Positions 14,002 to 62,098 of a stretch of DNA of 64,000 bases are shown piece after piece (position 1 is the first letter of the stretch; each line of letters starts with the position of its first letter). This DNA comes from an uncultured Chlorobiaceae bacterium. Lineage in GTDB: Bacteria; Bacteroidota; Chlorobiia; Chlorobiales; Chlorobiaceae. A model generated the notes under the pieces. The model saw only the letters and a program-made list of their open reading frames with translations. It made no database searches and was not told the origin of the DNA. Where the stretch lies: contig CAIPMW010000046.1 of NCBI GenBank assembly GCA_903866255.1, forward strand, positions 1 to 64,000. The letters are read 5' to 3'. The position numbers were made by a program, and so were the translations under genes.

Positions 14002-15261
14002 TTACGGGGTTGGAGTTGTTCTGTCGTGAGAATGCGTTACGGAGCCACAAGAGCAGCCGATAATGTGGCCAAGCTTGTCGCGTTTGGTATCGAGATAATT
14101 TTTGTTGATCGAATTGGGGGCAATTTCAAGCGACAGCCTCTCAACAATTTCGAGCCCATACCCCTCAAGGCCGACAACTTTTTTTGGATTATTGGTCAAG
14201 AGCCTCATTTGCCTTACCCCAAGATCCTTGAGAATCTGGGCGCCAATACCATAATCACGCAGGTCAGCCTTGAAGCCAAGTTTTTCATTGGCCTCAACGG
14301 TATCAAACCCCTCATCCTGAAGGTTATAGGCCTTGAGCTTGTTGATAAGCCCAATGCCGCGTCCCTCCTGCATCAGATAGATCAACACCCCGCGCCCCTC
14401 TTTTTCAATCATGGTGAGCGCTGAGGCAAGCTGATTGCCGCAATCACAGCGCAGAGAGGCAAAAGTATCTCCTGTAGCACACTGCGAGTGAACCCTGACG
14501 AGAACCGGCTCATCAGTGGTGATATCACCTTTGACAAAAGCAATATGATTATGCTGGTCAGTGAAAGATTCATAAGCGATAAGCCTGAACTCTCCATAAG
14601 CCGTCGGGAGCCTTGATTCAACCGCCCGTTGCACAAGCTTGTTGCGCTGCATCTGATAGGCGACCAGTGACTTGATGGTAATCAGTTTCAGTCCAAATTT
14701 TGCCTTCAGCTTGATCAGCTCGGGAAGTCGGGCCATACTTCCGTCATCATTAAGAATTTCACACAGGAGACCAACTGGAGAACAACCGGCAAGTCTGGCC
14801 AGATCAACGGCTGCTTCCGTATGTCCCACACGCCGGAGCACGCCACCATCCATCGCCCTGAGAGGAAAAATATGGCCAGGTCTTGAGAAATCGTCAGCTT
14901 TCGATGAGAGATCACCAAGCATTGTAATGGTCATGGTGCGGTCATAGACAGATATGCCTGTAGTAACCCCCTCGGCTATCGCATCAACCGAAACCGTGAA
15001 GTTGGTCTCGTGCTGCGAGGTATTCCTCTGCACCATCGGATCAAGCTGAAGCTCTTTGGCCCTCTCCATCGTCACCGCCACACAAAGAAGACCCCTCGCC
15101 TCTCTGGTAATAAAATTGATCATCTCGGTTGTCGCCCGGTCTGCGGCGCCAATAAAGTCCCCCTCATCTTCACGCTCCTCGTCATCAATCACCATAACAA
15201 GCTTCCCCTGCCGAATATCTTCAAGAGCTTCGTCAATAGAGTCAAAAATCTTTGTATGCAT
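14002..15261 (-). CDS. ribBA: Bifunctional DHBP synthase / GTP cyclohydrolase II
   Basis: A 419-aa fusion for riboflavin synthesis. The N-terminal RibB domain has [18 protein letters not shown] and [14 protein letters not shown]. The C-terminal RibA domain has the zinc site [20 protein letters not shown] and the [16 protein letters not shown] motif with the catalytic Tyr region. Both halves look functional: ribulose-5-phosphate to DHBP, and GTP to the pyrimidine precursor. It lies 29 bp downstream of no co-directional gene and just upstream of glyA, so the two may be co-transcribed. Confidence 0.95.
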
Positions 15262-17911: not shown

Positions 17912-18775
17912 TCAGGCAAGTGTTATAAACTTTTGTTCAATGCCCCCCTCTTTTCCTATAAGCAGTTCACTGTATCGCCGGGGAGAATAGCGAAAACTCC
18001 CGCCATTGATAAAGGTAATTCCATCCACAGAATAGGACTGAAACCGATGAAAATGGCCGTGCAACACGACCCTCGCCTTAATAACCTTCATCGCCGCCAA
18101 AAACTCATCACGGTTTTTCAACTCCATAGTCCAGTCGAATGCCTGGTCAATCAGGGAATCTGTACCGTAGACCCTGTAGGCGTGATGGCAGAGCCCAATC
18201 ACAAAACACTCTCGCAGCGAAGCAAGAACATGTTCAAGGCTCAGTGCACGCAACTGCCCGGAAGTAATTGAGCCCCTGGCACCCAGAGGATTGTCAGCAG
18301 GATACCAGGGATAAACAGAATTCAGTGCTGTAATTGCAATCTTCATCGAGGGGAAATTGATAATTTTCACAAAAGGAAATGCTTTATTCGCATCCTTTTC
18401 ACCAGTTATCAACTCCTGAAAAAAAAGAGAGAAATCGGTCAACTTGCGATCAAAGGCACTCTTTCGGAGCAAAGGCAACGGATTCAGCGCATTATAAAAA
18501 CGCATCTCCTCTTCAAGATTGATCACATCATGATTTCCTGCAATAACTGTACACTTGTCCCACTGATAAAGAGCATGGCCCTCCAGTTTTTCTTTGACAA
18601 GGCGCCAGTCTCCCTGATCAGCATTATTACTCAGATCTCCGGAAATAACAAGATGATCAAACCCTGCATTATTAAAATGATCCAGCAATCTGTCAAAAGC
18701 ATCAAGCTGACGGCGATCCTGCTTACCGGAAAAATGAAGATCCGAAATGTGCGCTATTTTTACTTTTTCCGTCAT
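17912..18775 (-). CDS. Calcineurin-like metallophosphoesterase
   Basis: A 287-aa protein with the complete dinuclear metal-site motifs in order: HISDLHFSG (DxH), VISGDLSNNAD (GDxxD-type), VIAGNHDVI (GNHD), LCHHAYR and LHGHFHRF (GHxH). It is a cytosolic phosphohydrolase; the closest general group is the CpdA/Icc-like exonuclease/phosphodiesterase branch, but the substrate cannot be set. Converges with the ferritin-like gene (8 bp) and diverges from glgP. Confidence 0.85.
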   Translation of the reverse strand: MTEKVKIAHISDLHFSGKQDRRQLDAFDRLLDHFNNAGFDHLVISGDLSNNADQGDWRLVKEKLEGHALYQWDKCTVIAGNHDVINLEEEMRFYNALNPLPLLRKSAFDRKLTDFSLFFQELITGEKDANKAFPFVKIINFPSMKIAITALNSVYPWYPADNPLGARGSITSGQLRALSLEHVLASLRECFVIGLCHHAYRVYGTDSLIDQAFDWTMELKNRDEFLAAMKVIKARVVLHGHFHRFQSYSVDGITFINGGSFRYSPRRYSELLIGKEGGIEQKFITLA

Positions 18776-46157: not shown

Positions 46158-47381
46158 ATGCTGTTAGTGATAACAACAAATACAATCATGCCAAGATTTT
46201 CTAAAGCAGTTTCATCACTCCGCTCTTCCGAAATCAGGGATCTCATGACCCTGGCCTCAAGACCGGACATCATCTCCTTTGCGGGTGGAATGCCCGGCAA
46301 CGATCTCTTTCCCGTTCAGGCGATTGAGGATCTTTTCAAAGCGCTCGACATCAAAAAAAAGCGCATTGCATTTCAGTACGGCCCGACACCCGGCCTTCCC
46401 TCACTGCTTGAGTCACTGAGCGGCTTCCTCGAAAAAAAGGGGTTGCCGGTACACACGAACCGACTGCTCATCACCACCGGCTCACAACAGGGGCTCAATC
46501 TGCTTGGCAAAGCCTTTATTGATCCTCACGACCCTGTCCTTGTCGAAAATCCCTGCTTTATCGGAGCGCTTTCGGCTTTCCGCTCCTACGACGCTGAACT
46601 GAGAGGTGTCCCTGTTGACCGCGACGGTATTGTCATGGAGGCGCTGCAACGGGAGATCGACCAAAAAGAGAAGCCAAAATTTCTTTACGTCACCCCATAT
46701 TTCCACAACCCGGCAGGGCTGCTCTACAGTTCTGAACGCAAAGAGCAACTTATAACCGCGCTTCAGGGGCGCGATATCCCGCTGATTGAGGATGATGCCT
46801 ACGGCGACCTCTACTTTTACGAAGAAGATCGGGAGCAACTCAAGCCCATCAAGGCCATCAATCCTGAAGGAATTGAGATCTGCTCTACCGGCTCATTCTC
46901 CAAGATTCTCGGCCCCGGCCTGCGACTGGGCTGGATGCTGGTGCCCGAAGAGATCTACCAGAAGTGCGAACTGATCAAGCAGTCTGCCGATGCCTGTTCG
47001 CCGAGCTTCACCCAGGTACTGGCTGACGAATTCATCCGCTCCGGCCAGATTTACAGCTATATCGCCACTGTTCGGCAGGAGTACAAAAGAAGGGCAAACG
47101 CCATGGTTTCTGCTCTCAAGGAACACCTGCCAAACTACGTCCAGTGGAACGAACCACGAGGGGGCTTTTACCTCTGGCTCACCCTGCCGGAAGAGACCGA
47201 TGCTACGAAAATTGTGCAACTTGCCATCGAGGGCGGCGCGGTGTTTGTGATAGGAAAAACGTTCGATCCGGCAGGAACGCAAAACAATTCACTCCGCCTC
47301 TCCTATTGCAACAACACCCCGGAGCAGATCGCCGAGGGAATTCCAATTGTGGCGAGGGCTATACGGCAGGTGTGCGGATGA
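46158..47381 (+). CDS. PLP-dependent aminotransferase (MocR/2-aminoadipate type, class I/II)
   Basis: A 407-aa protein; AAGGAG sits 4 nt before the ATG at 46158, though MPRFSKAVSSLRSSEI from 46188 is the conserved start. It shows DIISFAGGMPGNDLFP, QYGPTPGLPSLLE, TTGSQQGLNLLGKAF, the aspartate in IEDDAYGDLYF and the PLP lysine in CSTGSFSKILGPGLRLGW. This group includes 2-aminoadipate and aromatic/branched-chain aminotransferases; the substrate is unknown. It lacks a GntR DNA-binding domain. Confidence 0.87.
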   Translation: MLLVITTNTIMPRFSKAVSSLRSSEIRDLMTLASRPDIISFAGGMPGNDLFPVQAIEDLFKALDIKKKRIAFQYGPTPGLPSLLESLSGFLEKKGLPVHTNRLLITTGSQQGLNLLGKAFIDPHDPVLVENPCFIGALSAFRSYDAELRGVPVDRDGIVMEALQREIDQKEKPKFLYVTPYFHNPAGLLYSSERKEQLITALQGRDIPLIEDDAYGDLYFYEEDREQLKPIKAINPEGIEICSTGSFSKILGPGLRLGWMLVPEEIYQKCELIKQSADACSPSFTQVLADEFIRSGQIYSYIATVRQEYKRRANAMVSALKEHLPNYVQWNEPRGGFYLWLTLPEETDATKIVQLAIEGGAVFVIGKTFDPAGTQNNSLRLSYCNNTPEQIAEGIPIVARAIRQVCG

Positions 47382-47491
47382 ACAGGAGATTTTGCGATCC
47401 GATCAACTATCACCACCCATAAGCCATAGTAAACAGTTTAGTACTGTGAAGATTGAATATCACCCTTGCGAAACAAGAATGCAGATAAGCA

Positions 47492-47782
47492 TCAAATACG
47501 ATCTTGCCAATATGAAGGGTTTCTGTGAGAATTAGCAAAAGCAACAACAAGAATCTCAGTTTCTCTCATTTGATAAATAATCCCGTAAGGAAAACGACGA
47601 AGCTTACATCGCCTGATTCTCGGGGAACATTGATGTCATGCTTGAGGATGCTTCATGATTCGATCAAGAGCATGAAGAGCTTTAACAAGAAACACCTTGC
47701 CCAAACCAGCAAGCTCATGGTTATAATAATCAATGGCATCATCAAGCTCTTTTTGGGCGACCACAAGCAAGCGAATATCCAT
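47492..47782 (-). pseudogene. ParE-type toxin with a Trp codon changed to TGA
   Basis: From the ATG at 47782 the frame reads MDIRLLVVAQKELDDAIDYY ... RIMKHPQA, then TGA at 47638-47636, and continues in frame as HQCSPRIRRCKLRRFPYGII through VAFANSHRNPSYWQDRI to a TGA at 47494-47492. Relatives have Trp after HPxA, so this looks like TGG to TGA. Apart from this codon the 96-codon toxin is intact. It follows its antitoxin by 5 bp. Confidence 0.8.
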
Positions 47783-47787
47783 TGCTG

Positions 47788-48006
47788 TCAGAGATTCTTA
47801 TACTTTTCAAGAACCTCTCCTAACGAGACTGACTGTAATTGCCCCTGTTCATACGCATCAATCCGGCTTTCCGATTCTGTTGTCCATAACTCATCAATTG
47901 TTTTATCGGGTGCATCAAGATGAGCAATCAGTTTATCAACAAGCACCGCCTGCTCTTGAGGTTTCAGAGCCAAAGCATACAGATAAATATCTTTTGCCGT
48001 AATCAT
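47788..48006 (-). CDS. Addiction-module antitoxin
   Basis: A 72-aa protein (MITAKDIYLYALALKPQEQ, VLVDKLIAHLDAPDKTIDEL, SRIDAYEQGQLQSVSLGEVL) of the short addiction-module antitoxin family, similar in size and layout to the one at 45.1 kb. The last part is the flexible toxin-binding tail. It is intact; the toxin behind it is interrupted. Confidence 0.82.
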   Translation of the reverse strand: MITAKDIYLYALALKPQEQAVLVDKLIAHLDAPDKTIDELWTTESESRIDAYEQGQLQSVSLGEVLEKYKNL

Positions 48007-48118
48007 TAAAAACCCCCTGTTATAAGAAGAGTTAACTGTAAATTGTACAACACCGTCTTTTGATTATAACAACAACTTCAGAAGAAGACAAATTTGCTGA
48101 TATAACTACTGATACCCC

Positions 48119-48609
48119 ATGGCATCAAGCACACATCAAGATCTCGCAGGATTTATATGGAACATCGCCAACAAGCTGAGGGGCCCATACCGTCCGCCGC
48201 AGTACCGTCACGTCATGCTGCCTATGACCATCCTCCGCCGCCTTGATCTGGTGCTTGAACCAACCAAAGAGCCGGTGCTTGCCGAACTGAAAAGACTGCA
48301 AGCCAAAGGGATGACCGGCCCGGCGCTCGAAGCTGCCCTCTCAAGAGTTGCCAACGGCGGCAACCGCAAACAGGCGCTCTACAACACCAGCCCCTTCACC
48401 TTCCAGAAGCTGCTTGGGGATGCTCCAAATATTGCCGACAACCTCATCTCCTACATCAGAGGCTTTTCGCCCCGTGTACGCGACATCTTCGAAAAATTCG
48501 AGTTTGAAAAAGAGATTGAAAAGCTTGACGACAGCAACCGACTCTTCCTCATTGTCAAAGAGTTCTGCAGCTCAGAAATCGATCTCTCCCCGGCCAAACT
48601 CTCAAACCT
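48119..48609 (+). repeat. hsdM: Long direct repeat A (5' hsdM), upstream copy
   Basis: 491 bp aligned without gaps to 54286-54776. I count 16 differences (96.7% identity), every one at a third codon position and synonymous. The repeat starts at or within a few bases of the ATG and ends at codon 163/164. Confidence 0.92.
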
Positions 48610-48667
48610 TAATATTATCAACTCGACAAACTATATTCTATCATGCTCGAACTTGTATTGGGAATAG
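48119..48667 (+). pseudogene. hsdM: hsdM 5' stub (type I DNA methyltransferase N-terminus)
   Basis: The first 163 residues (MASSTHQDLAGFIWNIANKL ... EIDLSPAKLSNL) are the helical N-terminal domain of type I HsdM and are identical in protein sequence to the start of the second hsdM at 54.3 kb. From 48610 the sequence changes abruptly to AT-rich DNA, adding 18 unrelated residues before a stop at 48667. The methyltransferase motifs are absent. The stop lies 25 nt inside the following cargo gene, so translation of the stub could couple to the cargo. Confidence 0.9.
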
Positions 48668-50793
48668 GAGCCCTAATTGGAGCTCTAATATGGCTTCTAA
48701 GTTGGATAGTATTTCCTGCATTTATGATTATCACAATTATTCAGACGGTAACGATTGTGAAAAATCGTTCACTTGACGCAACCAATAAAGTATCTGATCT
48801 ATCGGAGGATATTGCTACTTTTTATTTATTATCCAGCATAATCTTCTTCAGCACTATCACTACTAATTTTTCTGTTGGTTTCGAATGGATAACTATATCT
48901 AACATATTTATCTATATTTGGTTAATTATAATTGTTACGACAATACTATGGGCAATTGATTTTGCCGTGATAGTAGTACTTGACCGTATAAATACTGCTC
49001 TAAATTATATATTAATATTTCGTTCCTTTTTATGGCTTTTTATATTTGTACTCTCCTTTACAAAAGCGATTACTTTTCAAGACGTAATCTCAGAAATCAA
49101 TTACTCTTTTATACTTTACAATGTATGCGCAGCTATTATTATTATACTACATCTTGTTCTGCAGTTTCAGAGTAAAAACTACATAATCACATCAATTGTC
49201 ATATTAATAAATTGCTTTTTTCTTTGGCTTTTTTTTATATACTTTTTTGCTTTCAAAGCGTCATATCAAATCTTTTTGCTCTCAATGCTAATCGGCTATA
49301 TATTTTCAATTATCTTTTATGTCTATAATAAAAAGTATATAAAAGATATAATAAAAGATAAGGCTTTTTTCCTTATAACAAAAAGTATAAATTACAGCTC
49401 TGCTTATAATAAGCTCTTGATAAGCTTATTGGTTTTTGCTTCTATGTTAGTTTCAAGCCATATAATGATTATAAATAATTCACATAATTATTTATATCTA
49501 TTTTATTTCTTTTTTAATTCTACCTTAGCGATACTGCTTTCTATTTATTCAATACCCTTTGTGATAAAATACGCGAAAAATGCGCGCTATATTTCAAAAC
49601 TGAATAAAGAGAAATCAAAGTTACAAAGCGAACTTAAACAAATAGGACTTACTGTACTGATAAGGGATATGCAAGTCAAGGATGATGGGAAGATCAATTT
49701 TGAAAAAGCAATTATTGAACGGATAATTAAATCAAAGAATTCAAATGCCGCAGAGTTAATTTATAAAATAAGCTCTGAATTTCTTGTAATGATTAATCTT
49801 TATTTAGTAGACAAATTCATTTCCCAACCTTCGACAAAGCATTTAATTTATTTTGAACAAAACTATAATAACTTTTTAAGGGAATATATCCAAGAAACTA
49901 AATCAGACAAAAATTTGATCGATTATCTGTATTACAATAAATTACCAATAAACGATTTCCCCGATTATAAAATTAATCGCAAAACTGTCAGCAGTCTATT
50001 ACATAAATTATCAAATGAATATACATATTTAGATAATTATTATGATGTGGTTTTTCGCTTGTTATCAAACGCTCCTTACAAGGAGATTGCAATAGATCAA
50101 AATTACTTTCGGGACATAAAATCAATTATTGAAAATATCAAGCCAAGAAATGGAATAACAATCGAAGATTTAGATTCATTAAAAAATAAAGCAATTAAAA
50201 ACCATGATTATGATTTTTTAAAAAAAGCTTTATTTTTATATGAATTTGATCTACATACCAGCTTAATTGTTTTAAAACATTTAGGAACAAAAAAAGTATC
50301 TCCTCAATTAGTAGATAACTTCATTTATAAGATAAAACCTCTAATCAACGATTCGGAAATAAATTATGATTTCAATTTTTATCAAGATTATGCTTCTGAT
50401 AAATTAGAAAAATATAATATCACAATAAACAGAACAGAATTTATAACCTTTGCAGACGAACTCTGGCAATATATAAATAAAGAGATGCTTTCTGATGATT
50501 ATTTACGGCTTATTTCTGCACTCTTTGAAAATGATACACAATTCAAATATATTGAATTAATCACCGACCCCAACCACACCAAATTATCAATGAATACTGT
50601 GTTTGAAGTTTTGAAACATTTAAAAGGCGCAAATCAAACCGAAATAGAGGCACAAATTAAAGCGAGGATATTAGGATATCCACATATCACAACATTTTCC
50701 AAGCTAAAAAATCCAGCAGGTACTCCTCTGTCTACTTTAATACAAAGGGCAATGATCGAAACTAATTTCAATAACACAATGAATCAATTATGA
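48643..50793 (+). CDS. Large polytopic membrane protein of unknown family, first gene of the MoxR/VWA operon
   Basis: A 716-aa protein. Residues ~1-310 hold about nine or ten hydrophobic helices (for example MLELVLGIGALIGALIWLL and LFYFFFNSTLAILLSIYSIP). Residues ~320-350 form a charged coiled-coil-like segment (KLNKEKSKLQSELKQIG), and the last ~370 residues are soluble, helical and Lys/Asn/Ile rich. No enzyme motif was recognised. Base composition is far more AT-rich than the backbone, indicating recent acquisition. There is no ribosome site; the start lies within the hsdM stub frame. Its stop overlaps the MoxR gene start (ATGA). Confidence 0.8.
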   Translation: MLELVLGIGALIGALIWLLSWIVFPAFMIITIIQTVTIVKNRSLDATNKVSDLSEDIATFYLLSSIIFFSTITTNFSVGFEWITISNIFIYIWLIIIVTTILWAIDFAVIVVLDRINTALNYILIFRSFLWLFIFVLSFTKAITFQDVISEINYSFILYNVCAAIIIILHLVLQFQSKNYIITSIVILINCFFLWLFFIYFFAFKASYQIFLLSMLIGYIFSIIFYVYNKKYIKDIIKDKAFFLITKSINYSSAYNKLLISLLVFASMLVSSHIMIINNSHNYLYLFYFFFNSTLAILLSIYSIPFVIKYAKNARYISKLNKEKSKLQSELKQIGLTVLIRDMQVKDDGKINFEKAIIERIIKSKNSNAAELIYKISSEFLVMINLYLVDKFISQPSTKHLIYFEQNYNNFLREYIQETKSDKNLIDYLYYNKLPINDFPDYKINRKTVSSLLHKLSNEYTYLDNYYDVVFRLLSNAPYKEIAIDQNYFRDIKSIIENIKPRNGITIEDLDSLKNKAIKNHDYDFLKKALFLYEFDLHTSLIVLKHLGTKKVSPQLVDNFIYKIKPLINDSEINYDFNFYQDYASDKLEKYNITINRTEFITFADELWQYINKEMLSDDYLRLISALFENDTQFKYIELITDPNHTKLSMNTVFEVLKHLKGANQTEIEAQIKARILGYPHITTFSKLKNPAGTPLSTLIQRAMIETNFNNTMNQL

Positions 50794-52082
50794 GCGATAT
50801 ATTAGAACCAAGTATTTTGCAGATTTTAGGGAAAGTTCATAAAGTTATAAATGAACTTAATGAAATATTAATTGATAGAAAACGGATTATTGATTTGTCA
50901 ATTTTAGCACTAATTGCAAATGAAAATATCCTATTACTTGGCCCTCCTGGTACGGCTAAAAGTCTATTGGCAAGCGAGGTCTGCAAAAGAATTGAAAACG
51001 CAAAATATTTTCAAAGATTGTTAACAAAATTTTCAACAAATACAGAGTTACTCGTATCTGGACAAGAAATTCATAGAGAGACACTCAACGGTAATAGTGA
51101 AATAACCAGAATAAAAAATTCGCATAAAGGAATGCTACCAGAGTGCGAAATTGCTTTCCTGGATGAAGTATTCAAAGCAAATTCGGCAATTCTAAATGCG
51201 TTACTCACGTTAATAAACGAACGTGTGTACTACACAAATGATGGAAAAGAGATAAAATCAAGTTTAATTAGTGTTTTTGGGGCGAGTAATGAGCGCCCCA
51301 AACCCGAAGAAGGATTAGAAGCATTATATGATAGATTCCTTATCAGGTATTACATCGGTTACCTGCAAGACAGAGACGATTTTATAAAAATGCTTAGTTT
51401 AGAAAAAAATAATAATACAAAAATTACAAAAATTACAATTAACGACATCTATACTTTAAATGGATACTTGGACAAGATTGAGATTCCAAACGATATCCTA
51501 GAAACAATATACAGAAAAAAAGAAATATTAAAGAAATCACAGGAATTGAAACTTATAAATCCTTCAGACAGAAGGTGGAGAAATTCATTAAAAATACTTA
51601 GGGCACACGCATTACTGAAAGGCAGAGGCGCTGTAATAACTACTGACATAATGGAAACTTTTCCTTACATTCTATGGGATACTCAACCAGGGATGTCGAC
51701 AAATCTTAATTATGATAAATTAGAAGAATTGGAAATGTTTTTCAGGAAAAGTGTTAGCTTAAATCTAGATGAAATGATGAAGAATTTAGAAAAACTGAAA
51801 ACGAAACTCAAGGAACTACAACATACTGAAGAGACAATTCGGCAAGAAATACATTCAAATCAGCCTGACAAGTATGAAAAAAATATTAATGACTATGACC
51901 TTGAAGGGACAAAGTTTATTGCTCAGGTTGAAGAGTATAAAAAGCGGGCAGAGGATTTCAATCCAGACACTTTACCATTAGGTGAACAGGAATGGTTAAA
52001 AGGATTTGGCCTTCAAACCGAAAAATTTAAAACCCATGTAAAAAATAAAATAAGAGAGCACAATGATTACTTAATGCAATAA
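50790..52082 (+). CDS. RavA-like MoxR-family AAA+ ATPase
   Basis: A 430-aa protein. Walker A is ILLLGPPGTAKSLLASEV, Walker B EIAFLDEVFKANSAILNALL, sensor 1 lies in VFGASNERPKPEEG, and the arginine-finger region is ALYDRFLIRYY. The RLLTKFSTNTELLVSGQEI and IFLDE-FKANSAILN motifs are those of the RavA branch of MoxR proteins. The C-terminus (~320-430) is coiled coil plus a small domain ending LGEQEWLKGFGLQTEKF. MoxR ATPases act as chaperone-like motors with VWA partners; here the partner is the next gene, 13 bp downstream. Confidence 0.9.
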   Translation: MSDILEPSILQILGKVHKVINELNEILIDRKRIIDLSILALIANENILLLGPPGTAKSLLASEVCKRIENAKYFQRLLTKFSTNTELLVSGQEIHRETLNGNSEITRIKNSHKGMLPECEIAFLDEVFKANSAILNALLTLINERVYYTNDGKEIKSSLISVFGASNERPKPEEGLEALYDRFLIRYYIGYLQDRDDFIKMLSLEKNNNTKITKITINDIYTLNGYLDKIEIPNDILETIYRKKEILKKSQELKLINPSDRRWRNSLKILRAHALLKGRGAVITTDIMETFPYILWDTQPGMSTNLNYDKLEELEMFFRKSVSLNLDEMMKNLEKLKTKLKELQHTEETIRQEIHSNQPDKYEKNINDYDLEGTKFIAQVEEYKKRAEDFNPDTLPLGEQEWLKGFGLQTEKFKTHVKNKIREHNDYLMQ

Positions 52083-52095: not shown

Positions 52096-53682
52096 ATGAA
52101 CAAGTCAATACTGCACTTTCAACTAAAAAACACAATTTCATATAAAAACGACTTTGAAATTAAGCTATTACTACAAGACAATAACAATTCCAAGGAATAT
52201 GACAGGATTAAAAATTTACCGCAAAACCTTTTAATAAATACTTTTGATGAACTATCAAGTGATATCTTCTATTCATTTTATAATAAAAAAGTAGAACTAC
52301 TACAAGCTGAATACGTGCAACTCAAATTTTTATTAAATCATCTTATCATGGATAATTTTATCAAGCAAGATGACTATAAGAAATTTCGAGAAGGGCAATA
52401 TAAAACTATCTATAACGACGAAGCAAGCTTTGAAGCAGTTCTAATTTCCATTCAAAAAATAATTAAATATTTGGACCGATATCTATCTGATGATAGTAAG
52501 AATGAAATTAATGACGTTTCTGATGAAATTAACCAAATTGACAAGAAGGAAAATCACCTTAATGAATTAAAAAAGAAAGGTCAATTATCTGGGCTCGATC
52601 AAAAAGAATTTGAAAAACTTAATCAAGAAATTATAAAATCAAAACTCGCTCTAAAAAATAAAATTCAAGAAATATCCTCAACATTGAAAGGGACAATTGC
52701 TCAATCCATACAAAAAGGCCTTTCAGAAGCCAAATCTGATATAGACGATTCTAAAAAAGAATTACAAAAAGTCTTAGGGGGATTTAACCAAGGATTTGAA
52801 CAAGGTGAGTTACAGAAATTGCCAATTCACAAAAGGATTGAATTAGCAAAGTTACTCTCATCCAACAAAAAAATTATGGAGATCGCAGAAATATTAGGTC
52901 GTTTTAATATAATAGCAGAACAAAAGCAAATTGAAAAAAAATCGAACCTAAAAATTGAAGTATCTGACATAACTAAAGGCAATGACTTGGAAAAGGTTAC
53001 ACCTGATGAGTTTTCAAATTTAAGTAATCCACATACTCGAGATGACTTCAATGTTAGATGGGCTTCAGGAGAATTGCTTACATTTGAACGAAAGCCAGAA
53101 ACTGATAAAGAAAATATAGGAAAAGGGAGTGTTATAATTTGCGTTGACACAAGTGGATCTATGGCAGGGATAAAAGAACTAAAAGCTAAAGGACTGGCTT
53201 TGTCTGTTGCTCAAATTACGTATCAACAAAAACGAAATTTTGCATGCATATTATTTAGCTCTTCACACAATAATTTAATAGTTGATATAATTAGTCAATC
53301 TGATAGCCCTGCCAGCATTGCAGAAAAAGTTATTAATATAGCAACGAGTTTTATTGGAGGAGGCACTGATTTTGAATCTCCTTTAAATAAAGCAATCAGC
53401 ATCATTGAACAAGATGAATTTAATAATGCTGATATTCTATTTTTAACCGATGGTTATGCAAATATTTCCGAACCCTTTCTATCAAAATACAATGATCTCA
53501 AAGGTAAAAAAAAGTTTAAAACAATAGGATTGCTTGTAGATGCCAATGATGCTGACAGATATTCGGTTAGAGATGTTATGCATAAATTCTGTGATGATAT
53601 TAAATACAATCAAGATATCGAAAAAGATTTAGATTTTTCACAAGCCGATGAATTCGTAAATGATATTTTTTTAAAAATTTAG
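52096..53682 (+). CDS. ViaA-like VWA-domain protein
   Basis: A 528-aa protein. The N-terminal ~300 residues are helical with a coiled coil at ~145-215 (NQIDKKENHLNELKKKGQLS). The C-terminal VWA domain (~345-528) has a complete MIDAS: IICVDTSGSMAGIKELKAKG, the Thr in FIGGGTDFESPL and the Asp in ILFLTDGYANIS. The block WASGELLTFERKPET before the domain and the VWA itself resemble ViaA, the partner of RavA. It ends the three-gene AT-rich operon. Confidence 0.88.
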   Translation: MNKSILHFQLKNTISYKNDFEIKLLLQDNNNSKEYDRIKNLPQNLLINTFDELSSDIFYSFYNKKVELLQAEYVQLKFLLNHLIMDNFIKQDDYKKFREGQYKTIYNDEASFEAVLISIQKIIKYLDRYLSDDSKNEINDVSDEINQIDKKENHLNELKKKGQLSGLDQKEFEKLNQEIIKSKLALKNKIQEISSTLKGTIAQSIQKGLSEAKSDIDDSKKELQKVLGGFNQGFEQGELQKLPIHKRIELAKLLSSNKKIMEIAEILGRFNIIAEQKQIEKKSNLKIEVSDITKGNDLEKVTPDEFSNLSNPHTRDDFNVRWASGELLTFERKPETDKENIGKGSVIICVDTSGSMAGIKELKAKGLALSVAQITYQQKRNFACILFSSSHNNLIVDIISQSDSPASIAEKVINIATSFIGGGTDFESPLNKAISIIEQDEFNNADILFLTDGYANISEPFLSKYNDLKGKKKFKTIGLLVDANDADRYSVRDVMHKFCDDIKYNQDIEKDLDFSQADEFVNDIFLKI

Positions 53683-53699
53683 GTATCAGGTTTAGGGAA

Positions 53700-53734
53700 G
53701 TTGCATACATATAAATAATTAATGTATACGCAAC
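53700..53734 (+). terminator. Imperfect hairpin after the MoxR/VWA operon
   Basis: GTTGC-ATACAT (53700-53710) pairs with ATGTAT-(AC)-GCAAC (53722-53734) with a 2-nt bulge and an 11-nt AT loop, 18 bp after the VWA stop. The T run comes only about 10 nt later, so termination is plausible but not certain. Confidence 0.35.
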
Positions 53735-53815
53735 AATAGATGCGTTTTTGCCCAGTCACGGTATTGAAGGAAAAATCTTATTGGGCACGACACAGGATAA
53801 AGATTTGCACACTCT

Positions 53816-54064
53816 ATGATGGTAGAAAATCTTTTCGCTCTCGGATTAAACGCACCTTTAATTGTGCTGGTCGGCTTTATCTCGCCATTTACAAGTTATC
53901 GTGAAATGGTGCACAGCCTCTTTTCCGTAAGGGAATTTTTGGAGGTATTCGTCAATACGCCACTGGACGGTTCCTACAAGGCACCGCTTACCCCTGAGAT
54001 TCATCTTTCAGGCACAATGGCATCCCCGGGTTTGATACTGAACTTGTTGACTTTGCGAAATTGA
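53816..54064 (+). pseudogene. Adenylylsulfate kinase (CysC) remnant with internal deletion
   Basis: The frame reads VGFISPFTSYREMVHSLFSV then REFLEVFVNTPL, matching the middle of APS kinase (AFISPFRADREMAR...EFIEVFVDTPL). It then jumps to KAPLTPEIHL, matching the later SPYEAPxNPEIHL of the same enzyme. About 30 residues (the RDPKGLYKKARAGEI region) are missing, as is the whole N-terminus with the P-loop. It is a relic trapped between the cargo operon and the second hsdM copy. Confidence 0.65.
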
Positions 54065-54285
54065 TTTTCACCTCGTCCCGAAAAGAGAGCCCGCCTTTGC
54101 CTGCCAGTTACACAAGAAAAGGTAGAAAAGGCGTTAATCCATTCCCCTTTTCTGAAGAAAAGCCGATAACTGGTTTCTTCAAAAGCAAAAAAGGCGTTCT
54201 TTCTCGAATACCTTGAATTTTCAACTCCTGAAAGCCGATGAAAAAAAAGAGGCGCATCAATAACACCAAGAAGTACCCCAATACC

Positions 54286-54776
54286 ATGGCATCAAGCACT
54301 CATCAAGATCTCGCAGGATTTATATGGAACATCGCCAACAAGCTGAGGGGGCCATACCGTCCGCCGCAGTACCGACACGTCATGCTGCCCATGACCATCC
54401 TCCGCCGCCTTGATCTGGTGCTTGAACCAACCAAAGAGCCGGTGCTTGCCGAACTGAAAAGACTGCAAGCCAAAGGAATGACCGGCCCGGCGCTCGAAGC
54501 AGCCCTCTCAAGAGTTGCCAACGGCGGCAACCGCAAACAGGCGCTCTACAACACCAGCCCCTTCACCTTCCAGAAGCTGCTTGGGGATGCTCCCAATATT
54601 GCCGACAACCTTATCTCCTACATCAGAGGCTTTTCGCCTCGTGTACGCGACATCTTCGAGAAATTCGAGTTTGAAAAAGAGATTGAAAAACTTGACGACA
54701 GCAACCGCCTCTTTCTCATTGTCAAGGAGTTTTGCAGCTCAGAAATCGATCTCTCCCCGGCCAAACTCTCGAACCT
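54286..54776 (+). repeat. hsdM: Long direct repeat A (5' hsdM), downstream copy
   Basis: Second copy of the 491-bp repeat at 48119-48609, same orientation, 5.7 kb of cargo and debris apart. Homologous recombination between the copies would remove the MoxR/VWA operon precisely and rebuild one hsdM 5' end. Confidence 0.92.
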
Positions 54777-55053
54777 CCAGATGGGCTATCTCTTTGAGGA
54801 GTTGGTCAGGAAATTCAACGAACAGGCGAACGAGGAGGCCGGAGACCACTTCACCCCGCGCGAAGTTATCCGGCTCATGGTTGAACTGATGTTTATCTAC
54901 GAAAATGAGGTCTTCAAGGCCGGAAAATACAGCTCCATCTACGACCCGACAGCCGGAACCGGTGGAATGCTCTCCGTTGCTGAAGAGTACATCAAACGAA
55001 CAAACAAACATCACCCCTTATTGCCGGAAAAGGGAGTGTTCTGGCAGACCTGA
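54286..55053 (+). pseudogene. hsdM: hsdM, second copy, truncated after motif I
   Basis: 255 aa from the ATG at 54286. Residues 1-163 equal the upstream stub. It continues correctly as MGYLFEELVRKFNEQANEEA, GDHFTPREVIRLMVELM and the SAM motif DPTAGTGGMLSVAEEYI. After KRTNKH it loses homology and stops at 55053; the catalytic NPPF motif and C-terminus (normal length ~500+) are missing, and no hsdS follows. The break runs into a vapBC relic, so this methyltransferase is inactive. Confidence 0.88.
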
Positions 55054-55201
55054 CCGCGCCGGTATCACCTGCAGATGAGTGGAGCTGCCTCTCATGATCG
55101 TGCTCGACACCCACATCTGGGTTAACTGGATGATCACAATTGACAAGATCGGGAATTTTTTTATGCCGATAATTTCTGACCTTCGAAAGGCAACTTATTG
55201 A
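55035..55201 (+). pseudogene. vapBC relic: antitoxin tail plus toxin start
   Basis: In the +1 frame relative to hsdM, SVLADLTAPVSPADEWSCLS ends at a TGA (55095-55097), like the C-terminus of antitoxins paired with PIN toxins. It overlaps by ATGA a new start at 55094 reading MIVLDTHIWVNW, the exact N-terminus of a VapC. After these 12 residues homology stops. Both halves are cut, so nothing functional remains. The same MIVLDTHIW start occurs in the intact VapC at 55.5 kb. Confidence 0.6.
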
Positions 55202-55379
55202 GAATCAACTCCCTGAGATTTATTTTTTTATTGGCATTGTCAATATCCATACCCACAAGAGTGCCCTCCTCGTCATAATCGAGAACAACCCCTTCTGAAA
55301 TTTCAACACTTTCCGAACTCTCTTTGTCTGAAAATTCGATATACAGTGAGTCGGTATACGGGTAATAATTAATTTTCAT
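55161..55379 (-). CDS. DUF2283 protein
   Basis: 72 aa from the ATG at 55379: MKINYYPYTDSLYIEFSDKE, then EISEGVVLDYDEEGTLVGMD and IDNANKKINL. This is the compact DUF2283 fold, commonly found in TA-like contexts, often with a DUF4258 partner. No partner was recognised next to it. Function unknown. Confidence 0.82.
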   Translation of the reverse strand: MKINYYPYTDSLYIEFSDKESSESVEISEGVVLDYDEEGTLVGMDIDNANKKINLRELILNKLPFEGQKLSA

Positions 55380-55543
55380 GTCTATATCTCCGATCTGGAA
55401 ATGCATTATGTATCGTTACTTTATCATCAAGGGTTGCAAAAATCTGACATTTCAGGTGAATGTGCATGAAATCATGACCGGGCCACGAGACGTAAAAAAA
55501 CAACGATACAAGGATGAACTCCAGAGTCTCTTGAAGGTTTATG

Positions 55544-55933
55544 CTACAACAGCCTGTTCTTCAGTTCTGTATAACCGCTGAATTTTCGATCAGAGGACAT
55601 AAGACACGCATGATGCACGAGAGCTGTTGCAATGATAATTCTATCCTGAGGGTCACTGTGGTGCTCAGGTAATTCAACTGCGACACACGCAATTTCAGGA
55701 GTAACAGGTAGTAATTGTATACCAGATCCATAAAGCGCTTTTTCAAACCAATCACTCTTACTGGCAGATAAAGCAATGCGGCCGTGGTGCTCCAGCCAAG
55801 CCACTTCAAAACAGCTTATTGCCGATACGGCTATGACATCTGAGTTTGCGATCTGCTCCAATCGACTTTGATCAAGATGATCAGTATCATTGTTGACCCA
55901 CCAAAGCCATATATGGGTATCAAGAACAATCAT
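55544..55933 (-). CDS. VapC-type PIN-domain toxin
   Basis: A 129-aa protein with all acidic PIN residues visible: Asp in MIVLDTHIWLWWVNN, Glu in AISCFEVAWLEHHGR, Asp in HHSDPQDRIIIATAL and Asp in MSSDRKFSGY. It should be an RNase. The start overlaps the antitoxin stop (ATGA, 55930-55933). Full length and probably active. Confidence 0.88.
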   Translation of the reverse strand: MIVLDTHIWLWWVNNDTDHLDQSRLEQIANSDVIAVSAISCFEVAWLEHHGRIALSASKSDWFEKALYGSGIQLLPVTPEIACVAVELPEHHSDPQDRIIIATALVHHACLMSSDRKFSGYTELKNRLL

Positions 55934-56160
55934 TCAGGCAAATCCCAACTGGAAGAGGGCTCGCTGCTCATGATATCGCCTTTGATGATAACTTTTCCTG
56001 CTATGTCAGGATGTGGCACTCGACGAAGGGCTGCCGTAAAAACAGCGTCTTCTGAAATAACCAGAAATATAGCCTCCAACTTTTTGTTAGGGGGCAATTT
56101 TGGAACTCGTTTCAGTTTACCCGTCATATCAGTCTCCAACATCAATCGTTCTGCATACAT
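55930..56160 (-). CDS. VapB-type antitoxin
   Basis: A 76-aa protein (MTGKLKRVPKLPPNKKLEAI, VISEDAVFTAALRRVPHPD, SSEPSSSWDLPE). It directly precedes the PIN toxin and shares the ATGA overlap, the standard VapBC order. I do not recognise the DNA-binding fold with certainty; the role is deduced mainly from position and size. Confidence 0.72.
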   Translation of the reverse strand: MYAERLMLETDMTGKLKRVPKLPPNKKLEAIFLVISEDAVFTAALRRVPHPDIAGKVIIKGDIMSSEPSSSWDLPE

Positions 56161-56642
56161 AATTTCATCTTAAATAAACCGTTACGTTGAATGGCAAGAG
56201 CCAGATTTCACCGACATTCCGCTCCGGTGAAAAGATAAAGAGTTTATCAAACTTAACCCACACCAAGATTTTCCATAACCGCCTCTACCAGCCAGATGCG
56301 CAAGATTAGGTAGAGATAATAGCCGGAAGCCAGCCGAATAAAGTTTTGCGGTGGCCCGCCTTTCATGATAATAAAACGTCACCAAACGTCATTCCCGATT
56401 CGTCAATTGAGATGCTCATCCTAACGATACCTCAAGCGTTTGATCAAACAAGCGAATTGATTGATTAATAATTTCATTATCAGGAATACCATGAAACAAA
56501 TGACTGGCAAAAGTGAAAATGGTGGGCTTTGTTCGATGCTGAGCCGCATGACGTGCAATAAGCGAGCACTGTAAACCACGTCCAGCGAACCTGATAGATT
56601 GCCGTTATTCAATCAGAATATGGAGATGGGAATGAAAAATAG
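56161..56642. other. Gene-free stretch, probably decayed DNA
   Basis: No gene could be supported in about 480 bp between vapB and brnA. Short frames exist on the minus strand, including one around 56420-56590 that would read FASHLFHGIPDNEIINQSI, but they lack a start, a ribosome site or a family I recognise. Composition is like the neighbouring TA debris. Confidence 0.4.
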
Positions 56643-56855
56643 TCAGGAACTCTTCTGTTCATACCTTTTGACAATCGGAAGAAGTGAGCGCAATGCCTCA
56701 TTGACAGAGTCATGGTCAGGGAAATATTTGGCCACATCAGTATCAATAACAACGACATTGGTTCCCTCGGAAAATCTCGCTGTATACTTGCCCCTTACGC
56801 CTTTGCTGAAATCATACTCATCCAGCAGGTCAGGATCATTCTGCATGACTTTCAT
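56643..56855 (-). CDS. brnA: BrnA-type antitoxin
   Basis: A 70-aa protein with the BrnA-like pattern DEYDFSKGVRGKYTARFSEG and a C-terminal ribbon-helix-helix-like part (VVIDTDVAKYFPDHDSVNEA, LRSLLPIV). It overlaps the 3' end of the upstream brnT by 20 bp. In this family the toxin gene comes first, as here. Confidence 0.82.
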   Translation of the reverse strand: MKVMQNDPDLLDEYDFSKGVRGKYTARFSEGTNVVVIDTDVAKYFPDHDSVNEALRSLLPIVKRYEQKSS

Positions 56856-57117
56856 ACTGTAACCTCTCGTTTTTCGTCGCCTTTCTGGCAGTGATTATTC
56901 GAAGTATATCTCCCCGCTCCGTATGAACGACAGTCAATATACGGTTTTTATGAGATCTCCCAATGACCACAAACCGATCCTCATTTTCAGAATGAAGGGG
57001 GTCATGGAGCGTCAGTGAAAGAGTATCTCCAAAAACTGTACTGGCCTCATCGAAAGAAATTCCATGTTTTTGTTCATTGCTGAACGCCTTTTGACTATTC
57101 CACTCAAACGATAGCAT
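56836..57117 (-). CDS. brnT: BrnT-type RNase toxin
   Basis: A 93-aa protein with the BrnT signature: FEWNSQKAFSNEQKHGISFD, EASTVFGDTLSLTLHDPLHS, EDRFVVIGRS and the C-terminal ILRIITARKATKNERLQYE (the RIIxAR motif). It is an ~11-kDa ribonuclease of a type II TA system and looks intact. Confidence 0.88.
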   Translation of the reverse strand: MLSFEWNSQKAFSNEQKHGISFDEASTVFGDTLSLTLHDPLHSENEDRFVVIGRSHKNRILTVVHTERGDILRIITARKATKNERLQYESHAE

Positions 57118-57392
57118 GTTTGGCCATTTTTTTATTTATGCTATTGCCTCCGATCACGAGATTAAGCTTTCCAGGCTCCTCTCCCTGTACAGAAGAAAGT
57201 GGGCCGAAATTCTTTATATCAAATGACTTGATCATTGGACTTGACTTGTTGCTATCATTTTCAGAGACCCGTTCTCTGAAAAATTCTTTTTTTACTTGTA
57301 AAATATAAGACGATCTTGAAAGAGAACTATCAACTTTTACAGAAAAGAACCAAATCCGGCCAAAACATCAACCCTGTTCACCCTCTGCAACC

Positions 57393-57578
57393 ATGCACAA
57401 GGAATCAAACTTCGAGCACTCCATAGAGCAATCGCTGCTCCAGCATGGCGGCTACAGCAAGGGCGACCCGCTGGCGTACGACATGAAGCTGGCGCTCTTT
57501 CCGGGTGAAGTTGTGGCCTTCGTTCAGGATACCCAACCTGAGTTCCGGGAGCGTTTCTCTGCGCTGAACAATAACGGA
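57393..57578 (+). repeat. hsdR: Direct repeat B (5' hsdR), upstream copy
   Basis: About 186 bp, ~91% identical to 59072-59254 with one codon (AAC) inserted near its end. It begins at the ATG in both copies and ends in AATAACGGA. Confidence 0.85.
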
Positions 57579-57590: not shown

Positions 57591-59032
57591 ACCTTTTACA
57601 ATTAATAGATTTGGCTGCTTCAGGAGAGGATGGCTCCCGGCAGTTCAAGTCGGATATTCGGAACGCTGAATCTCTGGCATCAGAAATGGCAGCCTTTGCC
57701 AATGCTGAAGGAGGAATCATTCTCATTGGCGTTGCTGACAATGGCTCCATACCGGGTCTTGAAAGCATTGATGTTTCGCGCATCAACCAGCTTATCAGCA
57801 ATGCCGCCAGCAATCTGGTACGTAGTCCGCTTACGGTACAGACTGAAAATATTCTGCTTGAAAATCGAAATGTTGTCATTGTTCTTACCGTACCCAAAGG
57901 AATCGATAAACCCTATTTCGATAAAAACGGTGTTATCTGGCTCAAATGTGGTGCTGACAAGCGACGAGTCAATACAAAGGAAGAGTTACGACGACTGTTT
58001 CAGATATCCAATCAGTTTCACGCTGATGAACTTCCAGCAAAAGCAGGTATTGACGCTCTTGATAAGCTTCGTTTCAGGGATTTTCTTAAAAAGACCTATC
58101 AACTGGACTATCCCGAGACCAATGAAGAGCTGAAAAAGCTTCTGCAAAATATGAATCTGGCTACCGACACTGGAGCACTGAATCTTGCTTGCGTCCTTTT
58201 GTTCGCCGAAAGACCAGAATGGATCGTACCACAATTTGTTGTGAAGACGGTTCGCTTTCCGGGTAATGAAATCCATCAAAGCGAGTATCTGGATATGGAG
58301 GATTTTACCGGAGCTTTAGGAGCCATTTTTGAGGGAGCGATGGCCTTTTTGATGCGAAATATGCACAAGGTGCAGGCCGGGCGGGGAATTAATGCGCCCG
58401 GAACCCCTGAAATTCCGCCGATTGTCTTTGAAGAGCTACTGGTTAATGCCCTGATGCACCGCGATTATTTTGTAAGCGCCCCAATCAGACTGTTTTTATT
58501 CGATAACCGAATTGAAATTATCAGTCCGGGACACCTGCCCAACAACCTGACTGTCGCCAAAATCAAAACAGGTAATTCCAATATCCGTAATCCGATTCTG
58601 GTCTCCTATGTCGCAAAAGGGCTGTTACCCTACCGGGGGCTTGGTTCTGGAATCAAACGGGCAATTGATGCATGGCCAAACATTGACTTTATCGATGATC
58701 ATGATGGTTGCTTGTTTACCGCCATTGTTCACCACAATAAAATTGGAGGTTCGGTAGAAAGTTCGGTAGAAAGTTCGGTAGAAAGCTCGACAGAAGGTTT
58801 GGTAGAAGGTTTTGTAGAAAACCCAATAGATGGTTCGGTAGAAAGTTCGGTAGAAATCGATAATCCTGTTCTCGAACAGTTCAGACTTAATCCTGAACTG
58901 ACTCTTCATGCTTTGGCAAAAACACTGGATATATCATTGAGAGCAACTGAAAAAAGGGTGGCCAACTTGCAGGAAAAAAATAAATTAAAACATGTCGGGC
59001 CGAAAAAAGGCGGCTACTGGCAGGTGCTTTAA
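57587..59032 (+). CDS. AlbA_2/Schlafen-type ATP-binding regulator (COG2865 type)
   Basis: A 481-aa protein. The N-terminal AlbA_2 domain (~10-120) has SRQFKSDIRNAESLASEMAA, FANAEGGIILIGVADNG and KPYFDKNGVIWLKCGADKR. The middle region (~270-380) has a GHKL-like ATPase part with ELLVNALMHRDYFVSAPIRL, FDNRIEIISPGHLPNN and LPYRGLGSGIKRAID. A repeated SVES linker (~388-425) joins a C-terminal winged helix (LHALAKTLDISLRATEKRV). Such proteins are frequent in type I R-M operons. It is the cargo between the two hsdR 5' copies. Confidence 0.85.
   Translation: MNLLQLIDLAASGEDGSRQFKSDIRNAESLASEMAAFANAEGGIILIGVADNGSIPGLESIDVSRINQLISNAASNLVRSPLTVQTENILLENRNVVIVLTVPKGIDKPYFDKNGVIWLKCGADKRRVNTKEELRRLFQISNQFHADELPAKAGIDALDKLRFRDFLKKTYQLDYPETNEELKKLLQNMNLATDTGALNLACVLLFAERPEWIVPQFVVKTVRFPGNEIHQSEYLDMEDFTGALGAIFEGAMAFLMRNMHKVQAGRGINAPGTPEIPPIVFEELLVNALMHRDYFVSAPIRLFLFDNRIEIISPGHLPNNLTVAKIKTGNSNIRNPILVSYVAKGLLPYRGLGSGIKRAIDAWPNIDFIDDHDGCLFTAIVHHNKIGGSVESSVESSVESSTEGLVEGFVENPIDGSVESSVEIDNPVLEQFRLNPELTLHALAKTLDISLRATEKRVANLQEKNKLKHVGPKKGGYWQVL
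58748..58859 (+). repeat. Degenerate 12-bp tandem repeat coding the SVES linker
   Basis: Units close to TCGGTAGAAAGT repeat in frame, giving SVES-SVES-SVES-STEG-LVEG-FVEN-PIDG-SVES-SVEI. The 12-bp period keeps the frame when copies are gained or lost, so the linker between the ATPase and winged-helix parts can change length. Repetitive linkers at this place are known in related proteins. Confidence 0.85.
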
Positions 59033-59071: not shown

Positions 59072-59254
59072 ATGCACAAGGAATCAAACTTCGAGCAGTC
59101 GATAGAGCAATCCCTGCTGCAACATGGCGGCTACAGCAAGGGCGACCCGCTGGCGTACGACAAGAAGCTTGCGCTCTTTCCCGATGAAGTGGTGGCCTTC
59201 ATTCAGGATAGCCAACCGGAGTTCTGGGAGCGTTTCTCCGCACTGAATAACGGA
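59072..59254 (+). repeat. hsdR: Direct repeat B (5' hsdR), downstream copy
   Basis: The 5' end of the full-length hsdR, matching the stub at 57393-57578 (~91%). The 1.5 kb between the copies holds only the AlbA_2-type gene. Confidence 0.85.
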
Positions 59255-62098
59255 AATGCCAACGCTGTTCTGATCGAGAGTCTTGTGCGGGAGCTGCGAA
59301 CCAAGGGAATGCTCTCCATTTTGCGAAGCGGGTTCAAGTGTTTCGGCAAAACCGTGCGCATCGCCTTTTTTCAGCCAAATACCGGCATGGAGCCGCTTGC
59401 GCTCGAACGGTTCAGCAAAAACCGGCTGACCGTGATTCGTCAACTGGAAACAGAGAGTGGTGCCATCCCTGACATGGTGCTTGCGGTGAACGGCTTGCCT
59501 GTAGTGACAATAGAGTTGAAAAATCCCCTGACCGGGCAGAATGTGGTGCATGCCCAACAGCAGTACCGCGACCGCGATCCCAATGAGCTGCTCTTTGCCT
59601 TCAAGCAGCGCTGCCTTGTACATTTTGCGGTGGATACGGAAGAGGTCTGCATGACCACCAAGCTTGACCGGGGTGCGACTTCATTCCTTCCCTTCAACCG
59701 GGGAAACAACAACGCCAAAGGCAATCCGCCGGTTGAGGGTGATGTGCGCACAGCCTACCTGTGGAAAGAGGTGCTGGTGAAAGAGAGTCTGATGGATATT
59801 CTGGGCCGTTTTCTCCACCTGCAGGTTGAGGAGAAAACTGTTCCGACCGCCAAAGGGTTGAAGAAGCTTCGGCACGAAAGCATGATTTTCCCCCGCTACC
59901 ATCAGCTTGATGTGGTGCGCAAACTTGCCAACCATGCCCGGCAGTACCGCTCAGGGCACAACTACCTGATCCAGCACTCTGCCGGATCGGGAAAGTCGAA
60001 CTCCATTGCCTGGCTTGCCCACCGGCTTTCGACCCTGCACGATGCCCGGAACGAAAAAATCTTCCATTCGGTGGTCGTTATTACCGACCGGGTGGTGCTC
60101 GATCAGCAGTTGCAGGATACCATTTTCCAGTTCGAGCACAAGCAGTGTGTGGTGCAGAAGATTGACGAGAACACACAGCAACTGGCCAGAGCTTTGGCCG
60201 ATGGCGTACCGATCATCATTTCAACCATCCAGAAGTTTCCCTTTATCACACAGGCTCTTGCCACGCTTGAGAACAAGGGCCAGGGCATCGACATCTCCAC
60301 AGCAGGCAGACGCTTCGCCGTCATTGTTGATGAAGCGCACAGCTCACAGAGTGGCGAAACGGCCATGGAGCTGAAAAAGATTCTGAACCGCGAAGGGATT
60401 GAGTCGGCCATTGCCGAACAGATTCTCGACATGAACGACGAACCGCTCTCGGATTCGGCAAAGCGCTCCATGCTGCGTGATCAAATAAAGCGAACCAAAC
60501 AGCCGAACCTGAGCTTTTTCGCCTTTACGGCCACGCCGAAGTTCAAAACGCTTGCAATTTTTGACGAGCCCGGTGAAAACGGTGCCTCCCCGTTCCACCT
60601 CTACAGTATGCGTCAGGCCATTGAAGAGGGGTTCATTCTTGATGTGCTGGAAGGGTACACCTGCTACAAGCGATACTATCAGTTAATCCGGACGGTTGAG
60701 GACGATCCCGAGCTGCCGAGAAGAAAGGCCGCACGAGCGCTTGCCAGGTATGTTGATCTGCACGACTACAACATTACGCAGAAGGTTGAAATCATCGTTG
60801 AGCATTTCCGCACGCACACCCGCCACAAGATCGGCGGGCAGGCCAAAGCGATGGTGGTGACCGGCTCGCGTGAACATGCCGTGCGCTACAAAATGGCGTT
60901 CGACAGCTACCTGAAAGCGAAGAAATACCACGACATCAAAACTCTCGTTGCCTTTTCGGGTGAACTCTCTCTTGACGATCATCCCGGTATCAAGTTCACC
61001 GAAACACAGATGAACCACGGCATCAGGGAGAGTGAGCTGCCGGAGCGCTTTGCCTCCAATGAGTTTCAGGTGCTGCTGGTGGCTGAAAAGTACCAGACCG
61101 GCTTTGACCAGCCTCTGCTGCATACCATGTACGTCGATAAAAGGCTCGCTGGCATTCAGGCAGTGCAAACCCTCTCACGTCTGAACCGCACCTGCCCCGG
61201 CAAGGAGAACACCTTTGTGCTTGATTTTGTGAACGATCCGGAGGAGATCGGTCTCTCCTTCAAGCCCTATTACGAAACAACCCGGCAAGGCGAAGAGAGT
61301 GATCCGCAGCAGCTCAACGAACTGGCGCACAAGCTCGACCTGTGGAAGGTGTACGACCAGTCAGAGGTAAACGCGTGGTGCGAAATCTGGTTCAGCAACC
61401 GGATGCACCCGACCGGGGCTGAACATAAAAAGCTGAACAGTATCCTTGATGTCGTCGTTGAGCGGGTCAAAAAGCTTGAAGAGGAGGAGATTGATCTCTT
61501 CAAAAGCCAGTTCACCAGCTTTCTGAACCTCTACGGATTCCTGTCGCAGGTTATTCCCTATCAGGATTCCGGACTTGAAAAGCTCTACACCTTCGGGCGC
61601 TACCTGCTCTCAAAGCTTCCCCGAGACACCGGACGACATATCAGCATCGATGACGAGGTGCAGTTGAAATACTACCGGCTGGAGAAGTACAGCGAAGGAG
61701 CCATCTCATTGCGGGAGGGAGATGCGCCTCCATTGACTGGCCCGAAAGAGGTCGGCACCGGAAGCGCAGAGGAAGAGGTGCCACTCTCCACACTGGTTGA
61801 ACAGCTCAACGAACGATTCGGCACCGATTTCACCCCTGCCGATCAGCTCTTTTTCGAGCAGGTACAGGCAGCAGCCACAGAAAACGAAAAAATCCGGCAG
61901 GCGGCAGAGGCCAATACGCTCTCAAACTTTGAGCCGGTCTTCAACCAGCACCTCGAAACCCTGCTGCTCGACCGCATGAACGGCAACGAAGCCATCTTCA
62001 ACCGCATCATGAACGATGAAGCCTTCAAAAGCTTTATTGCGCAGAGGCTGATGCTCAACGTCTTCAAAAATCTCAACCAAATTATTTCAGCACCGTAA
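59072..62098 (+). CDS. hsdR: Type I restriction enzyme R subunit
   Basis: A full-length 1008-aa motor/nuclease. The PD-(D/E)xK nuclease is IPDMVLAVNGLPVVTIELKN (Asp, then ExK). The SF2 motor has Walker A IQHSAGSGKSNSIAWLAHRL, motif II VIVDEAHSSQSG, motif III FFAFTATPKFKT, and later motifs including EKYQTGFDQPLL and QAVQTLSRLNRTCPGK. The C-terminal helical region binds HsdM. It needs M and S subunits to act; the only hsdM here is broken and no hsdS is present, so it is likely an orphan unless complemented elsewhere. Confidence 0.93.
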   Translation: MHKESNFEQSIEQSLLQHGGYSKGDPLAYDKKLALFPDEVVAFIQDSQPEFWERFSALNNGNANAVLIESLVRELRTKGMLSILRSGFKCFGKTVRIAFFQPNTGMEPLALERFSKNRLTVIRQLETESGAIPDMVLAVNGLPVVTIELKNPLTGQNVVHAQQQYRDRDPNELLFAFKQRCLVHFAVDTEEVCMTTKLDRGATSFLPFNRGNNNAKGNPPVEGDVRTAYLWKEVLVKESLMDILGRFLHLQVEEKTVPTAKGLKKLRHESMIFPRYHQLDVVRKLANHARQYRSGHNYLIQHSAGSGKSNSIAWLAHRLSTLHDARNEKIFHSVVVITDRVVLDQQLQDTIFQFEHKQCVVQKIDENTQQLARALADGVPIIISTIQKFPFITQALATLENKGQGIDISTAGRRFAVIVDEAHSSQSGETAMELKKILNREGIESAIAEQILDMNDEPLSDSAKRSMLRDQIKRTKQPNLSFFAFTATPKFKTLAIFDEPGENGASPFHLYSMRQAIEEGFILDVLEGYTCYKRYYQLIRTVEDDPELPRRKAARALARYVDLHDYNITQKVEIIVEHFRTHTRHKIGGQAKAMVVTGSREHAVRYKMAFDSYLKAKKYHDIKTLVAFSGELSLDDHPGIKFTETQMNHGIRESELPERFASNEFQVLLVAEKYQTGFDQPLLHTMYVDKRLAGIQAVQTLSRLNRTCPGKENTFVLDFVNDPEEIGLSFKPYYETTRQGEESDPQQLNELAHKLDLWKVYDQSEVNAWCEIWFSNRMHPTGAEHKKLNSILDVVVERVKKLEEEEIDLFKSQFTSFLNLYGFLSQVIPYQDSGLEKLYTFGRYLLSKLPRDTGRHISIDDEVQLKYYRLEKYSEGAISLREGDAPPLTGPKEVGTGSAEEEVPLSTLVEQLNERFGTDFTPADQLFFEQVQAAATENEKIRQAAEANTLSNFEPVFNQHLETLLLDRMNGNEAIFNRIMNDEAFKSFIAQRLMLNVFKNLNQIISAP

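Follow-up and report, generated by a model that had tools for sequence, protein, structure and literature searches.

Several described types of recombination scar come close to the locus reported here. In insertion with long target duplication (Nobusato et al. 2000; cited in PMC3031569 and PMC1643837), direct repeats of a portion of the target flank a restriction-modification-linked insert, and our locus shares this layout. As that architecture is summarized in the citing articles, two differences stand out: the repeats in our locus look like diverged alleles with different leaders rather than copies of one target, and it is not the restriction-modification genes that were inserted. Homology-facilitated illegitimate recombination has been defined, and integration by homologous plus illegitimate exchange has been documented (PMC3240628). 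A single event with homology on one side and an illegitimate join on the other would produce exactly the arrangement we describe, although here we infer the process, including its homologous side, from the arrangement. A similar recombination was proposed by the authors of a study on the sequential displacement of type VI clusters in Vibrio cholerae (PMC5361080), where imported modules likewise leave resident gene fragments that resemble the alleles of other strains. In V. cholerae the anchor lies upstream and immunity genes are retained there, whereas our locus keeps a 5' stub and would have been anchored in the gene downstream. Finally, the genes involved are those of a type I restriction locus of the order hsdM-hsdS-hsdR, with HsdM_N and N6_Mtase domains and a complete hsdR, but hsdM is broken twice and hsdS is absent from the locus. 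The locus is a fresh example of known recombination scars and not a new type of system.

We analyzed a stretch of 64,000 nucleotides from an uncultured Chlorobiaceae bacterium (hereafter the window), in which two 5' copies of hsdM, termed A and B, flank a cargo of three genes (Table 1).

Table 1. Features of the hsdM region, in coordinates of the window
Feature	Position	Strand	Remarks
Aminotransferase gene, conserved left neighbour of hsdM	46158..47381	+	Pfam Aminotran_1_2
Native leader and intergenic region of copy A	47438..48118	+	continuous with hsdM in L035 and L037
Copy A, HsdM_N domain, hsdM codons 1-163	48119..48609	+	base comparison, domain match
Junction of hsdM-A and cargo, abrupt	48609..48610		stub reading frame continues 19 codons to 48667
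Cargo gene 1, 716 aa, hydrophobic N-terminal half, no Pfam match	48643..50793	+	
Cargo gene 2, MoxR-type AAA ATPase (bpMoxR)	50790..52082	+	domain match
Cargo gene 3, VWA-domain protein (C-terminal VWA)	52096..53682	+	domain match
Shredded Chlorobium sequence, ~570 bp, between cargo and copy B	53690..54260	+	
Leader of copy B	54261..54285	+	type preceding hsdM in L014, L039, L040 and L041
Copy B, hsdM codons 1-240, truncated	54286..55005	+	frame closed by 55053
Right breakpoint	55001..55090	+	hsdM codon 240 joined to a gene tail found ~5.5 kb downstream in L035
Complete hsdR, without hsdM and hsdS at the locus	59072..62098	+	

A base-by-base, ungapped comparison of copy A (48119-48609) with copy B (54286-54776, offset 6167) reproduced exactly the count given in a preliminary description of this DNA: 16 mismatches in 491 bases, every one of them a synonymous change at a third codon position, so that the translations agree at all 163 residues. 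The dN/dS comparison suggested there yielded a dN of 0.000 and a dS of 0.157 (NG86). Random changes in the sequence of the hsdM copies would be silent in 23-28% of cases, and the probability that 16 of 16 random changes are silent is 7e-11 to 1.6e-9, depending on the transition bias assumed. Identity between the copies, both of which contain the HsdM_N domain, begins 2 bp 5' of the ATG and ends sharply past 48609. Gene conversion between A and B is not visible, as their differences are spread from 48133 to 48604 and the longest identical run measures 92 bp. A third close hsdM copy was not found in the source genome. Copy A is broken off at codon 163 and reads 19 further codons into the cargo, while copy B tracks the hsdM family to about position 55005 (codon 240 of 733) and then passes into unrelated sequence. 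Neither copy is a working gene. The truncation of copy B had been missed in the preliminary description.

We compared both copies with nine intact 733-codon hsdM relatives from the same genus, eight of which were also found as named contigs. Five of these relatives form a close cluster together with A and B. The two copies are 16 bases apart, and most other pairs in the close cluster are separated by 18-28 bases; L009, L011, and L012 are mutually nearer, with 8-11 base differences. The five close alleles contain both bases at 10 of the 16 sites that distinguish A from B, and the full set of nine does so at 13; random silent changes would be expected to give 1.7-1.9 and 6.6-7.2 such sites, respectively. 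The observed counts were reached in 0 of 5000 simulations with the five alleles and in at most 0.3% of those with all nine. Because both bases of most A/B sites are present in other alleles, most of the differences are old polymorphism that predates the joining of the copies. Private sites number two in A and two in B, all of them silent. The earlier proposal that the two sequences diverged inside selected hsdM genes is thus borne out by the purely silent changes, by a distance near that between alleles of different genomes, and by the polymorphic state of 10 of the 16 sites. A tree of hsdM 5' ends, in which one copy had been expected to group with a foreign allele, gave a mixed answer. In the best maximum likelihood tree B groups with L010 (59%) and A with L013 (38%), but A and B are sisters in 28% of the bootstraps, and this sisterhood is not rejected (AU p 0.32). 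We count the nonsignificant A-B split against the view that the copies are separate alleles. The site patterns are in conflict with one another, which suggests recombination among the alleles; a blockwise comparison of B with the other alleles produced no clear crossover point.

The flanks of the two copies differ from each other. Of the 120 bp located 5' of copy A, 118 are identical to the hsdM leader of L035 and 117 to that of L037. The leader of copy B agrees with the leaders of L014, L039, L040, and L041 at 20-21 of 27 bases in register, as opposed to 12 of 27 when it is compared with the leader of A, to which it is unrelated. The aminotransferase gene preceding copy A also adjoins hsdM in L034, L035, L036, and L038 and was not found in the searched parts of the L014, L039, L040, and L041 loci. 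Copy A, with its leader and aminotransferase gene arranged as in other genomes, thus appears to be at its home site, and copy B would come from another context. Since each copy has its own natural leader, neither was duplicated from the other. The different leaders meet at the shared coding sequence, and hence, of the two ends of the repeat, only the right one is a breakpoint.

These findings bear on the reading in which an insertion with target duplication, or a simple tandem duplication, was followed by purifying selection on both copies. The architecture does resemble the insertions with long target duplication known for restriction-modification genes. Unconstrained drift after a duplication, however, would leave only silent changes with a P of about 1e-9 to 1e-10, and a fragment of 163 codons has no evident HsdM function on which selection could act. 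The 10 pre-existing polymorphisms and the unrelated leaders speak against it as well, and we assign this reading a negligible probability. Simple duplication, which the preliminary description had ruled out from the silent substitutions, is rejected independently by the polymorphism test and by leaders that each match hsdM leaders of other genomes.

The cargo is foreign to its surroundings, with a GC content of 24-36% (48610 to ~53690) versus ~50% in the neighbouring genes. The product of its first gene is probably a membrane protein. The MoxR ATPase is absent from the other 85 genomes of the family and from 393 genomes of the phylum, and the viral contigs searched contain no relative of it. 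An adjacent MoxR-VWA pair is also found on Brevibacillus plasmids, and PADLOC gave the cargo no name. Transposon-type ends were not found: the left junction (48600-48720) has no 9-mer in common with the right cargo end (53500-54290), whether in direct or in inverted orientation. The frame of the hsdM stub runs across the start codon of the first cargo gene, with an overlap of 25 bases (48643-48667), and the resident hsdM promoter could thus drive cargo expression or be coupled to it. Between the cargo and copy B, the pieces of debris match 12 other genomes of the genus Chlorobium at 71-96%, and a reading-frame remnant, recognized by eye in translation, resembles APS kinase (cysC). The position of this Chlorobium debris suggests that the source of copy B was a Chlorobium chromosome.

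We consider it likely that A and B are two natural hsdM alleles, A being the resident and B having been imported together with the cargo from another Chlorobium lineage. The donor DNA would have comprised the cargo, the debris, the leader, and hsdM-B, so that hsdM followed the cargo and was preceded by a leader of another type, and it probably entered as a linear fragment. On the right side, this fragment would have paired homologously with the resident hsdM, and on the left side it would have been joined illegitimately to resident codon 163. The product would be resident hsdM(1-163), the cargo, the donor leader, and the donor hsdM, with the resident 5' end kept and that of the donor added. 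One such event would be enough for the order of resident stub, cargo, and donor hsdM, and a later deletion would have taken out the remainder of hsdM together with hsdS. As the import would have joined a resident and a donor 5' end, the 491-bp repeat would not represent a copying event. That B rather than A is the import is our inference, as are the pairing step and the sequence of events. For the homologous side, B is a homologous allele, and A has no sequence beyond codon 163 in which a crossover could be placed. The left side lacks homology, with hsdM codon 163 abutting AT-rich cargo at a point where other alleles continue as hsdM. Homologues of comEC and dprA are present in the genome, but both genes are widespread and therefore provide weak evidence for competence.

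The purely silent divergence by itself cannot separate an import from two old resident loci, and the evidence from the flanks is thus needed. Silent-only divergence and different leaders would also be expected if the lineage had long carried hsdM at two sites and a deletion or rearrangement later brought the two genes together, without any import from another strain. Yet two close hsdM alleles do not occur together in any of the other 85 genomes of the family that were searched, where second hsdM copies are only 50-54% identical, and many of the A/B differences are common to alleles of other genomes. We regard such a fusion as quite unlikely. An unlikely course of events, too, is the integration by a single (Campbell) crossover of a circular element in which the cargo was fused to a 5' fragment of hsdM-B. 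It would yield the same order of repeat, cargo, and flank, with a native right flank expected, and the repeats would be reciprocal A/B hybrids. A reciprocal switch is not visible, however: A has L013 sites in both halves, and B has L010 sites across 48310-48565. In addition, we found no gene for an integrase, for replication, or for transfer among the cargo genes. Both the circular single crossover and the fusion of two resident loci are less likely than a linear import. An assembly chimera of two strains would be in line with the draft state of the assembly (117 contigs) and with a junction between A and the cargo that is found in no other genome of the family. On the other hand, this junction holds no collapsible repeat and has no 9-mer in common with the right cargo end, the longest identical A/B run is the 92 bp given above, and the reported contamination is low (0.67%), making a chimera very improbable.

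The import of one copy, as put forward in the preliminary description, is thus supported by the flanks and by the lack of a second family genome with two close alleles. Its description as recent is plausible, given at most two private changes in A and a cargo found only here, but the event is undated. No genome was found to carry the donor arrangement of cargo followed by hsdM. With the hsdM repeat as query, the only match in a plasmid collection was a Rhodococcus fragment, and viral contigs contained only distant hsdM sequences.

Beyond codon 240 of copy B, the window contains neither the remainder of hsdM nor any of hsdS, and the hsdS-bearing stretch of L035 (12199-13539) has no match in it. 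The N6_Mtase domain was matched over positions 6-74 of 311, and the window has no complete hsdM. The hsdR product comprises 1008 aa, of which residues 1-1003 align to L039 and L040. As copy B is truncated in addition to copy A, the type I restriction system of this locus is probably dead. The biology of the locus would otherwise be ordinary, a dead restriction system holding a foreign gene cluster. The region 55000-57130 is a patchwork of small remnants, apparently pieces of toxin-antitoxin genes, which match L035 in separate blocks.

A further stub is present in the same operon. A 5' stub of hsdR (57393-57571, ~60 codons) is located just before an SLFN/AlbA_2 gene, which is followed by the complete hsdR. 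The stub differs from hsdR (59072-59250) by 17 changes, six of which alter an amino acid, and silent changes are still overrepresented (P 0.0006). The same arrangement is found in L035 (17837, 19516) and L040 (15482, 17237), though not in L039, and its presence in these two loci indicates an older stub. The replacements are as expected of an old stub and provide an in-locus control for the hsdM copies. A third 5' stub in such an operon is found in L035: the AlbA_2-type gene, complete at 18031, has a 5' stub at 14196-14348, in front of other genes. These additional stubs support, without proving, that like events have occurred repeatedly in the hsd operon. Tentatively, and with some doubt on our part, the genes of the operon may be recurrent landing points throughout the genus: successive imports, with hsdM, hsdR, and the AlbA-type gene as anchors, would each have put new cargo behind a resident 5' stub, and the stacked stubs would record one invasion after another. 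If this reading is general, some of the long target duplications near restriction-modification genes may be allele fusions instead of duplications. An imported allele can be told from a local duplication in a repeat-cargo-repeat arrangement by comparing the leaders and by looking for the differences in other genomes. We suggest that a target duplication be called in a defence locus only after the repeats on either side of the cargo have been examined for allelic divergence. The C-terminal half of the AlbA_2-type protein in our window contains short repeats of approximately GSVESSVESSVE (58753-58860), possibly a variable linker.
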